Source of the DNA: Fuerstiella sp.
GTDB lineage: Bacteria > Planctomycetota > Planctomycetia > Planctomycetales > Planctomycetaceae
Length of the DNA stretch: 64,000 nucleotides
Assembly: GCA_022843805.1 (NCBI GenBank)
Contig: JALHMY010000004.1
Coordinates: 1 to 64,000, forward strand
Direction of reading: 5' to 3'
How positions within the stretch are numbered: the first letter of the stretch is position 1; every line of letters begins with the position of its first letter. The notes under the pieces were generated by a model that was not told the DNA's origin, made no database searches, and was given only the letters and a program-made list of their open reading frames with translations. The translations under genes and the position numbers were made by a program. This document shows, piece by piece, positions 20,305-27,336 of this stretch.

Positions 20305-20379
20305 AAGTCCGGCTTTTCAGCCAGCACCCGGAAGTCAGCCTGGAAAGGCTGACGTACGTCCGGCTTTCCAGCCGGACCC
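20305..20379. repeat. Double-hairpin REP-like repeat, copy 1
   Basis: The 46-bp unit at 20334-20379 is two adjacent hairpins, GTCAGCC-TGGAAA-GGCTGAC and GTCCGGC-TTTCCA-GCCGGAC, joined by GTACGT-like sequence. The two halves are themselves nearly complementary, so the whole unit is quasi-palindromic. A degenerate half copy precedes it at 20305-20330. An identical 46-bp copy lies at 21149-21194. Confidence 0.85.
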
Positions 20380-21101: not shown

Positions 21102-21148
21102 GTTGTACCGGGTGCAGGTCCAATTTTCGAACAGATCACCCGCGACAA

Positions 21149-21194
21149 GTCAGCCTGGAAAGGCTGACGTACGTCCGGCTTTCCAGCCGGACCC
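21149..21194. repeat. Double-hairpin REP-like repeat, copy 2
   Basis: This is an exact second copy of the 46-bp unit at 20334-20379, in the same orientation. The two copies bracket the hsdR/rhuM remnants, about 815 bp apart. Copies of this kind could recombine and delete what lies between. Confidence 0.88.
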
Positions 21195-24392: not shown

Positions 24393-25244
24393 ATGACGGC
24401 AGCTGTTCGATCGATCAACGGAATTAAAGTTCCTCGAATCCTTTATGGCACTGCATGGAAAGAAGAATCCACTCAGACTCTGACGGAACTGGCGATCCAC
24501 AGAGGGTTTCGAGGTATCGATACGGCCAATCAGCGTCGCCACTATTATGAAGCTGCCGTTGGAAACGCGGTTGCGGCAGCCATTCAGCAGGGGCTTGCAC
24601 GTCGAGAAGACCTGTTTCTGCAGACTAAGTTTACGTTTCGCAGCGGTCAGGATCAAAGGCTTCCTTATGCGGCAGATGCGGCTGTTTCCGATCAGGTAAA
24701 GCAATCGGCATTAAGCTCTCTGGAGCATTTGCAGACAGATCATATTGATTCCTACATCCTCCATGGGCCATCATCGCGAGGATCGCTGAAAAGCGATGAC
24801 TGGGATGCATGGAAGGCGATGGAAGAATTGTACGAAGCGGGGACAGTTCGCATCCTGGGTGTCAGTAATGTGACATCCGGCCAGCTGCTGGAACTTTATG
24901 AAGGTGCTCGTGTTCGTCCTCGGTTTGTTCAGAACCGTTGTTATGCCACTCAGCTCTGGGATCGGGATGTTCGTCGATTTTGTGCGGAGAACGACATTGT
25001 TTACCAGGGGTTTTCACTTTTGACGGCGAATCCTGCGGTTTTGAAATCCGGTTTGATTCATGATCTGGCGGCTGGAATGAAGAAGACGCCGGCGCAGATT
25101 GTTTTTCGGTTCGCCATGGAAGTGGGAATGCTGCCGCTGACAGGTACGACCAATCCACAGCATATGGACGAGGATCTTGGTGCAATGGATTTTGAGCTGG
25201 TGCCTGATGTTGTTGAGAAGATTGAGAAGCTTGGGGTCAGCTGA
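24393..25244 (+). CDS. Aldo/keto reductase
   Basis: The protein has 283 residues. The start at 24393 is fixed by an AGGAG site 6-10 nt upstream. The longer frame to 24282 lacks one. The (beta/alpha)8 AKR catalytic set is visible: Asp in GIDTANQ, a Tyr in HYYEAAVG, Lys in LFLQTKFT and His in YILHGP. The cofactor region reads MLPLTGTTNPQH near the C-terminus. It is a soluble NADPH-dependent carbonyl reductase of unknown substrate. It runs toward the minus-strand LexA-like gene, with only 5 bp between the stops. Confidence 0.9.
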   Translation: MTAAVRSINGIKVPRILYGTAWKEESTQTLTELAIHRGFRGIDTANQRRHYYEAAVGNAVAAAIQQGLARREDLFLQTKFTFRSGQDQRLPYAADAAVSDQVKQSALSSLEHLQTDHIDSYILHGPSSRGSLKSDDWDAWKAMEELYEAGTVRILGVSNVTSGQLLELYEGARVRPRFVQNRCYATQLWDRDVRRFCAENDIVYQGFSLLTANPAVLKSGLIHDLAAGMKKTPAQIVFRFAMEVGMLPLTGTTNPQHMDEDLGAMDFELVPDVVEKIEKLGVS

Positions 25245-25249
25245 ATGAA

Positions 25250-25873
25250 TCAGCGAATGGCGGTTCTCAGGATGCCGACAAGAATTCCGCGTATCTCGAC
25301 ACGTCCGGGCGGGAGTGTGAGCGGTCTCATGCGGCGATTGGCTGGCTGCAGGATGATCAGCCGATTTTTTTCGATATACCGTTTTAAAGTGGCTTCGCCG
25401 CCATCGACCAGCGCGACGACGGTCTGACCGCTGATGGCTTTTTGAGCATGTCGGATGATGGCGAGGTCACCGTCATTGATACCGTCGAGGATCATTGAGT
25501 CGCCTCGAACCCGAAGCAGAAAATGATCACGAGGATCAAAATGTTCTGTCAGGTCGAAGGTCTCAATGTCTTCGACTGCATCAATAGGTGTACCGGCGGC
25601 GATGTGCCCGAGAATTCTGAAGGGCGGAGACCGGTGACCTGCTTCGGAAAGGAGCAAATCCGGGTCCGCGCCCAGGACTTCGGCCAGTCGAATCAGTGTA
25701 TCCCGGCCGCAGGGCTGTCGGCCATTTTCGATGTGAGACAAGTGTGTGAAGTGAATCCCCACACGCGGCGCAAGATCCCGCAGGGAGATCCCCCGGGCCT
25801 TGCGCAGCCTTTGCAGAGTGGCTCCAATCGTGGACGCTGAACGACCTTCTGAACTGCCCCGGGATGGCGTCAT
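25250..25873 (-). CDS. LexA-like repressor: XRE HTH fused to S24 self-cleaving domain
   Basis: The protein has 207 residues. Residues 15-80 form an XRE helix-turn-helix (LAPRVGIHFTHLSHIENG) in place of LexA's winged helix. The C-terminal half is an S24/LexA peptidase: an Ala-Gly cleavage site in GHIAAGTP, nucleophile Ser in RGDSM and general-base Lys in ATLKRY. Self-cleavage triggered by DNA damage or a similar signal is expected. Its ATG overlaps the csrA stop (ATGA at 25870-25873), and a GGAG sits 8 nt upstream within csrA. It therefore follows csrA on one transcript, and a palindrome at the presumed promoter suggests it represses both genes. Confidence 0.87.
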   Translation of the reverse strand: MTPSRGSSEGRSASTIGATLQRLRKARGISLRDLAPRVGIHFTHLSHIENGRQPCGRDTLIRLAEVLGADPDLLLSEAGHRSPPFRILGHIAAGTPIDAVEDIETFDLTEHFDPRDHFLLRVRGDSMILDGINDGDLAIIRHAQKAISGQTVVALVDGGEATLKRYIEKNRLIILQPANRRMRPLTLPPGRVEIRGILVGILRTAIR

Positions 25874-26070
25874 TCCCCCAGCTCCAGAGCCAGGGCCGTC
25901 CTGACCAGTAGTTCTTCCTCGCGTGGCTGCAGTTCACCGCGACGAATATGTTCCGTCTGCGGTGCCTCGATTCCGATCTGACAGTTGCCCGAATTCAGTT
26001 TGAGCACCCGAATTCGAGTTGTTTCGTTGATAATGATTTCTTCGCCTTCACGTCGTCGAATGACCAGCAT
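25870..26070 (-). CDS. csrA: Carbon storage regulator CsrA
   Basis: The protein has 66 residues from MLVIRRREGEE, preceded by a strong Shine-Dalgarno (GGGGAGGA). An upstream in-frame ATG at 26106 has no such site. The CsrA fold is plain: beta strands MLVIRRR and IIINETTRIRVL, the CQIGIEAP segment, and RRGEL, which aligns the RNA-binding Arg44 while replacing the usual neighbouring Glu with Gly. CsrA binds GGA motifs in mRNA leaders. Its gene overlaps the LexA-like repressor gene by 4 nt, linking post-transcriptional control to a cleavable repressor. Confidence 0.92.
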   Translation of the reverse strand: MLVIRRREGEEIIINETTRIRVLKLNSGNCQIGIEAPQTEHIRRGELQPREEELLVRTALALELGE

Positions 26071-26105
26071 CGAAAAGTCCTCCCCACCATTTTCCATGGA
26101 TCGCA

Positions 26106-26127
26106 TGTCGTGTAGTGCTACAACACA
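26106..26127. promoter_or_regulatory. 22-bp imperfect palindrome at the csrA transcription start, candidate operator
   Basis: TGTCGTGTAG-TG-CTACAACACA has a perfect 12-bp core, TGTAGTGCTACA (26111-26122), and eight of ten matching arm pairs. It lies 36 bp upstream of the csrA start, directly downstream of the predicted -10 box, where a bound repressor would block transcription. The likely ligand is the LexA-like protein encoded by the second gene. Confidence 0.45.
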
Positions 26128-26133
26128 ACGAGG

Positions 26134-26161
26134 ATGTTAACAATTACCGGCAACTTGCCAA
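26134..26161 (-). promoter_or_regulatory. Candidate promoter of the csrA/LexA-like unit
   Basis: On the minus strand TTGGCA (26156-26161, five of six -35 positions) is followed after 16 bp by TAACAT (26134-26139, four of six -10 positions). Transcription would start close to 26127, the edge of the palindrome. The remainder of 26162-26376 up to the next gene holds no feature I recognise. Confidence 0.4.
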
Positions 26162-26376
26162 GAGCAAATTTTCAAGTTCATTTTTTAGTTCCACTTCCGG
26201 CCAGTCAGCCGCCATCATGGACGGACATGCAGAGAGACAATAGATTACCGATGGACTGATGCTCAGAGTGAATGGTCTGAGCAGTATGAGTTTCAACTAT
26301 TACTATGCGAATTCACGGTGAATTCACTGTGGAAATGCTTTCGCAAAGAGCTCTCTGTTGCTGGAAGGTCGCCTGA

Positions 26377-27336
26377 ATGCCACAAGTGGCTGTCACGGAT
26401 TATTCCTTTGATTCACTGAATATTGAGCAATCCATTCTGGAGCCGCTGGGTTGTACGATCACCGCGTTGAAGGAGAAGAGGCCTGCTGCAGAGCTGGTGC
26501 CTCTGGTATCCGGTGCCGATCATGTGATTACACAGTTTGCTCCCGTGAACAGCGATGTGATTGCGGCCATGCAGAAGGCCAAAGTCATTGTGCGTTACGG
26601 AATCGGGGTCGACAATGTTGATCTGGCTGCTGCTCGCAGTCGAGGCATTCCGGTCTGCAACGTGCCCGATTACTGTATTGACGAAGTGGCCGACCAGACA
26701 CTCGCATTCATACTCGCGTCAACCCGTCAGGTGCAGACCAACTCACTGTGTGTTCGTTCGGGTCAGTGGAAACTTTCTGTGCCTCTGTCAGGCATGAAAA
26801 CTCTTCGGGACCTGACCATTGGGCTAATTGGCTGCGGTCGGATTGGCAGAGAAGTTGTCCGTCGTCTTCTGCCGTTTCGCTGTCGCGTCGTTGTCTTTGA
26901 TCCGGCGTTGTCAGCGGAGCAGGTTGCCGAACTTGGGGCAACTCCCGTTCAGCCGGATCAGCTGTTTGCAGAAAGCGATGTGGTGTCGCTGCATTGTCCC
27001 AGCAATGCGAATACTCGCCGAATCATCAACCATAAATCTTTACAGGCAATGAAGCGTGGAGTGATTCTGATCAATGTGGCTCGAGGTGATCTGATTGATT
27101 CTCAGGCAATGGTCGACGGACTGACATCGGGTCATATTGGAATGGCGGCGCTGGATGTCTTTGATCCGGAGCCAATTCCGACGGACAGCCCGCTGCTGAA
27201 AATGGATCAGGTCATTGTGGCGTCTCATGTGGCATCCTGCAGTGAAAAAGCCGTGCGCAAGCTGCGGGAGACAGTCGCTCAGATCGTTGCAAAGTCAGTC
27301 CGCGGCGAGCCCTTACCCAACATCGTGAATCCCTGA
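26377..27336 (+). CDS. D-2-hydroxyacid dehydrogenase (C-terminal-binding-protein-like)
   Basis: The protein has 319 residues in the family's two-domain layout. The NAD-binding motif is GLIGCGRIGREV. Catalytic residues are visible: Arg in NVARGDLID, Glu in FDPEPIP and His in VASHVASCSE. The N-terminal YGIGVDNVDL loop binds substrate. It interconverts a D-2-hydroxyacid and a 2-oxoacid. It is the first gene of a long co-directional cluster, followed after 103 bp by an Ldh-family dehydrogenase, so both may feed a 2-oxoacid toward the E1/E2 complex at the end of the cluster. Confidence 0.88.
   Translation: MPQVAVTDYSFDSLNIEQSILEPLGCTITALKEKRPAAELVPLVSGADHVITQFAPVNSDVIAAMQKAKVIVRYGIGVDNVDLAAARSRGIPVCNVPDYCIDEVADQTLAFILASTRQVQTNSLCVRSGQWKLSVPLSGMKTLRDLTIGLIGCGRIGREVVRRLLPFRCRVVVFDPALSAEQVAELGATPVQPDQLFAESDVVSLHCPSNANTRRIINHKSLQAMKRGVILINVARGDLIDSQAMVDGLTSGHIGMAALDVFDPEPIPTDSPLLKMDQVIVASHVASCSEKAVRKLRETVAQIVAKSVRGEPLPNIVNP

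Follow-up and report, generated by a model that had tools for sequence, protein, structure and literature searches.

Does a self-cleaving repressor of the LexA type control the level of CsrA in planctomycetes? The question is raised by a 64,000-nt stretch of Fuerstiella sp. DNA (the window), in which a csrA gene runs into a gene for an XRE/S24 repressor (Table 1). A first-pass annotation of the window had proposed a stress-cleavable repressor that sets the level of CsrA together with its own. The 4-nt ATGA overlap between the csrA stop codon and the repressor start codon, from which that proposal set out, is seen at 25870-25873. We therefore compared the protein, the gene pair and the putative control region with their counterparts in other genomes.

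Table 1. Coordinates of the features of the csrA-repressor locus (positions in the window).
Feature	Position	Strand	Basis or comment
-35 element, TTGGCA	26156..26161	minus	most of the 10 loci have a TTGGCA-like hexamer
-10 element, TAACAT	26134..26139	minus	most loci have a TANNAT-like element 3-10 nt ahead of the operator
Operator dyad (predicted), gTGTTGT-AGCACTAC-ACGACAt	26105..26126	minus	dyad before csrA conserved in 10/10 genomes
Shine-Dalgarno of csrA, GGGGAGGA	26078..26085	minus	7 nt before the ATG; from sequence
csrA, divergent paralogue	25870..26070	minus	66 aa, MLVIRRREGE...; PF02599, 2.4e-13
ATGA stop/start overlap (translational coupling)	25870..25873	minus	TCAT on the plus strand; 4-nt overlap in 8/10 orthologous loci
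XRE-S24 repressor gene	25250..25873	minus	207 aa; Pfam, TIGR00498, alignment, structure comparison
Ala93-Gly94 codons, predicted self-cleavage bond	25592..25597	minus	aligns with E. coli LexA Ala84-Gly85
Ser126 codon, predicted nucleophile	25496..25498	minus	aligns with LexA Ser119
Lys164 codon, predicted general base	25382..25384	minus	aligns with LexA Lys156

Domain composition and kinship of the repressor

The repressor consists of an XRE helix-turn-helix (residues 16-74; HTH_31, 4.5e-16) followed by a LexA-type Peptidase_S24 domain (residues 87-199; PF00717, 5.6e-26). Pfam found HTH_31/HTH_3 at the N-terminus and no match to the LexA winged helix (PF01726), and the score against TIGR00498 (LexA), 103.6 bits, lies under the cut-off of 110.95, the match running from model position 38 on. 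The Ala-Gly site and the Ser/Lys pair that the first-pass annotation had recognized are present (A93-G94, S126 and K164) and do not vary in an alignment of 11 homologues. Among solved structures the best relatives of the repressor profile are LexA (3k2z, 1.2e-32) and UmuD', and an AlphaFold model (mean pLDDT 76.8, below 50 in the cleavage loop) matches the C-terminal domains of the same two proteins in Foldseek. In a tree of S24 domains that left out phage repressors, the ten repressors form one group (100/96) within a planctomycete LexA clade (99/95). Given this tree and the likeness to LexA and UmuD', the protein looks like a fusion in which a planctomycete LexA supplied the catalytic half and an XRE protein the DNA-binding half. 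Self-cleavage, supported at the level of sequence, is likely, and DNA damage, acting through RecA, is a plausible trigger.

The csrA paralogue and its linkage to the repressor gene

The csrA product scores 50.3 bits against PF02599, above the curated Pfam cut-off of 27, and 37 bits against TIGR00202, the canonical CsrA equivalog, which is under the cut-off of 70.1. Planctomycetes show a large expansion of CsrA, the window's genome having seven csrA genes and its relatives 2 to 17. The remaining listed csrA genes of the window's genome score ∼ 89 bits versus 50 for the gene of the operon, which is one divergent paralogue among the seven. Arg6 and Arg44, which we take to be RNA-contacting residues, are unchanged in an alignment of seven homologues, so RNA binding by this CsrA is plausible. 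The longest csrA open reading frame starts at 26106, inside the dyad; a start at this position, within the operator, is less likely than one at 26070, where the canonical CsrA start MLVIRRREGE lies. In one MAG locus (L119, from 2582) CsrA is extended at its C-terminus to 136 aa, and the extension contains repeats (ERPVLERPVLERPVLKRP).

In all ten genomes with a full-length repressor, the gene immediately upstream of the repressor gene is csrA. Whole-genome search yielded five carriers (G001, G003, G055, G079 and G082) besides the window's own 9.2-Mb genome (G000), and a scan of 84,980 species yielded four more (L116-L119); the weaker matches in that scan are more distant proteins, mostly the S24 half alone. 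The closest named carriers are Planctomycetaceae. Stop and start codons overlap by 4 nt (ATGA or GTGA) in eight of the ten loci and by 1 nt in L016, and a gap of ∼ 150 nt separates the genes in L015 (G001). Flanking genes are not shared among the ten loci, save in two near-identical loci of close relatives and for one abundant family. Persistence of the pair in otherwise different surroundings suggests that selection maintains the linkage. More distant XRE-S24 proteins occur in G083, with a weakly similar csrA (34%) upstream, and in G028, at a contig end. In the window, an aldo/keto reductase gene lies downstream in convergent orientation, 5 nt from the repressor gene, so the operon most likely terminates after the latter. 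The neighbours scanned with Pfam (this reductase, a 2-hydroxyacid dehydrogenase and a PQQ-repeat protein) are metabolic genes, and Rfam matched nothing in 25000-27000.

Promoter, operator and number of sites

The core dyad, TGTTGT-N8-ACGACA, occupies 26106-26125 on the minus strand (22 bp including flanks, 26105-26126). It begins 7 nt downstream of the -10 hexamer and would thus cover the initiation region, not the hexamers. The first-pass annotation had predicted a promoter overlapping a 22-bp palindrome at 26106-26127; the palindrome is real (0.02 matches expected per window), but its register was one base out and the dyad lies downstream of the hexamers. In the register originally given (TGTNNTGTAGNNCTACANNACA), the genome holds fewer other matches than a control pattern. 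The two hexamers of the window are 16 bp apart. Taken alone, the promoter scan of the window is near chance (2 found versus 0.8 expected), and what supports the promoter call is its conservation in ten genomes, not the scan score. A promoter-like stretch precedes the dyad in all ten loci, and the spacer between the hexamers, taken in each locus as the best match within the searched range, is 16 bp in nine of them. A dyad of the type TGTTGK-N8-MCAACA is found before csrA in 10/10 loci, a few of which carry one or two changes in one arm; in L119 it lies 441 nt before csrA.

Perfect copies of TGTTGG-N8-CCAACA are rare. Five genomes have a single site each, at csrA; G150 has two, the second inside an open reading frame, and G151 has none, its csrA site carrying a mismatch (control pattern, 0-1). 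The TGTTGT-class pattern is less specific: besides the site at csrA, the window's genome contains three one-strand matches elsewhere. GTGTTG-N10-CAACAC with one mismatch showed no excess over control, which argues against a broad regulon. The recognition helix of the repressor carries Lys (LSKIENG or similar) in the seven genomes with TGTTGG, and His or Asn in the three with TGTTGT. A joint change of helix and variable operator base is suggestive only, and not tenfold independent, because several of the genomes are close relatives. Read most simply, these comparisons point to a repressor that has essentially no target beyond its own operon.

A conserved pair, a conserved operator, about one site per genome and a helix that covaries with the operator make a self-repressing two-gene operon, with predicted binding of the repressor to the dyad, well supported. 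The proposal that the repressor controls CsrA levels along with its own gene is supported by comparative genomics as far as co-control goes, but it concerns one divergent paralogue of seven. It does not follow that CsrA activity shifts globally, given that the genome has seven csrA genes.

A predicted stress switch and its alternatives

We consider it fairly probable that the operon is a self-repressing stress switch, in which the repressor sits on the dyad and its self-cleavage, with help from RecA, releases both csrA and the repressor gene. The XRE-S24 protein, presumably as a dimer, would bind TGTTGK-N8-MCAACA across the transcription start and shut off the operon, and the ATGA overlap would couple translation of CsrA and repressor. 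Under stress the repressor would cut itself between Ala93 and Gly94, with Ser126 and Lys164 as the catalytic pair and, most likely, with the aid of RecA bound to single-stranded DNA. Release of the operon would then give a pulse of the CsrA paralogue, acting on mRNA targets that the model presumes, and fresh repressor that would reset the switch. Stress that destroys the repressor should accordingly raise CsrA and repressor at once in these planctomycetes. There are few documented cases of a self-cleaving stress sensor that is wired directly to an RNA regulator of the global type; such wiring would explain how one among many planctomycete csrA genes is switched, and the predicted near-single-target operator makes the model easy to test.

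The state of LexA in the carriers bears on the signal. The window's genome encodes a winged-helix LexA protein (L062; G000:C15:47359-47832), a strong match in which the S24 half no longer has the Ser and Lys, and in all six whole-genome carriers the remaining LexA has lost both catalytic residues. Such a degenerate winged-helix protein may act as a non-cleavable LexA. It is not specific to the pair, since degenerate copies also occur in genomes without it (G045, G034, G008, G017, G022 and G037). Further winged-helix LexA proteins with Ser/Lys lost (L063-L067 and L069-L074) come from carriers and other planctomycetes. A second intact LexA-type S24 domain was not found in the six carrier genomes (94-100% complete), versus a match at E <= 1e-15 in 132 of 143 non-carrier relatives, a count that reflects match strength, not individually verified catalytic residues, among relatives that are not independent. 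In genus g43, G079 carries the pair but lacks an intact LexA, and G045 carries an intact LexA, beside imuA-imuB, but lacks the pair. Three of the four further carriers (MAG completeness not given) are also without another intact LexA-type domain, so that overall 9/10 carriers show none besides the repressor; G151, a Schlesneria MAG, carries two intact LexA-like proteins in addition to the pair. The loss of cleavable LexA in most carriers is striking, and places a natural LexA domain swap alongside lost LexA catalysis in the same genomes.

The imuA promoters of six carriers (upstream regions L101, L102, L110, L111, L113 and L114) share a dyad, approximately GTTGACAGTTAACATCAAC, that lies over the -35 element and has a spacing of 11 versus 10 at csrA. 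The recA promoters of the carriers examined (the recA start of G079 was not located) have neither the csrA-type nor the imuA-type dyad. With recA lacking a dyad and imuA having a different one, the repressor does not appear to run the classical SOS regulon, which, like the gap between the two genes in G001, counts against the switch that we favour. Several imuA upstream regions also share a leader (GATCGCCGATGAACGG ... GGTAGGGAAACCGT), which may be a structured RNA.

These observations allow several readings of what the repressor senses. We put forward only tentatively that a LexA half was joined to an XRE domain and cleavable LexA was lost, so that what remains is a sensor of DNA damage with a CsrA paralogue as its one direct output; if true, an SOS signal would have been redirected away from the transcription of repair genes and towards post-transcriptional control. 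Replacement of LexA by the XRE-S24 protein as the general SOS repressor of the lineage would agree with the lost Ser and Lys in 6/6 carriers, with the contrast between none of six carriers and 132/143 non-carriers, and with the reciprocal pattern in g43. Full replacement is weakened by an operator that each genome has about once, in front of the repressor's own operon, by the different dyad at imuA and none at recA, and by the intact LexA-like proteins that G151 keeps, and we regard it as unlikely. Alternatively, the operon represses itself and the signal is something other than DNA damage, such as metabolic or envelope stress, with RecA-independent self-cleavage or a helper protease; this is possible, though some way from being our preferred account. 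An operator confined to the repressor's own promoter and absent from the SOS genes examined fits it. So does IrvR of Streptococcus mutans, a LexA-like regulator that likewise stands outside the SOS core and for which we know of no csrA partner. Because some LexA-like proteins self-cleave without RecA, IrvR being described as an exception to RecA dependence (PMC7101444), the trigger may not be DNA damage. Against this, the C-terminal domain of the repressor is closest to cellular LexA, and no other intact LexA-type domain turned up in the six whole genomes examined.

Two other readings concern the dyad and the origin of the pair. The inverted repeat, placed at or just past the point where transcription is predicted to start, could form a stem-loop; it might then work in the csrA mRNA, as a 5'-terminal hairpin affecting stability or CsrA binding, and not as a DNA operator. 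However, conservation of the TGTTG/CAACA bases and the 10-base spacing goes beyond what pairing alone would need, one arm of the G001 repeat breaks pairing, and the variable base tracks the recognition helix of the repressor; we find a hairpin improbable. It is improbable, too, that the repressor was left behind by a mobile element, such as a prophage or an ICE, and governs csrA as one of that element's components. Its neighbours are metabolic genes, the flanks vary among genomes, full-length phage matches are about 30% identical, and the C-terminal domain groups with planctomycete LexA (in a tree without phage repressors). What speaks for such a remnant is the Legionella lvrRABC module, four genes on genomic islands adjoining type IV secretion systems, in which LvrR has domains homologous to SOS-gene regulators and LvrC a CsrA domain (PMC3864950).

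The switch that we favour thus has a precedent in lvrRABC, where an SOS-repressor-like and a CsrA-like protein belong to one regulatory module, and a LexA-like protein wired to CsrA is not new in kind. The planctomycete pair differs in being two overlapping genes in varied chromosomal settings. The repressor resembles LexA in its S24 domain, Ala-Gly site, Ser/Lys pair and presumed autoregulation from an operator at its own promoter; it differs in its XRE domain, in its linkage to csrA with no SOS regulon detected, and in an operator not common to SOS genes (recA and imuA promoters of the carriers are without it). The XRE-S24 repressors lambda CI and HdiR have the XRE domain before the S24 domain and a self-cleavage mechanism. 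The planctomycete repressor shares this order, presumably the mechanism, and a predicted palindromic operator at its own promoter, here a dyad conserved in ten loci. In contrast to these repressors, its C-terminal half is nearest planctomycete LexA, and it is chromosomal and fixed to csrA, with no phage genes seen nearby. The collection of papers that we searched contained none on a csrA/XRE-S24 pair in planctomycetes; what is new here is the compact overlapping pair, the near-single operator and the LexA-derived domain swap.

Elsewhere in the window, a 48-nt palindromic repeat (GTCAGCCTGGAAAGGCTGACGTACGTCCGGCTTTCCAGCCGGAC) is present in two identical copies, 815 nt apart, at 20332-20379 and 21147-21194; the repeat looks like a dispersed REP-type element.
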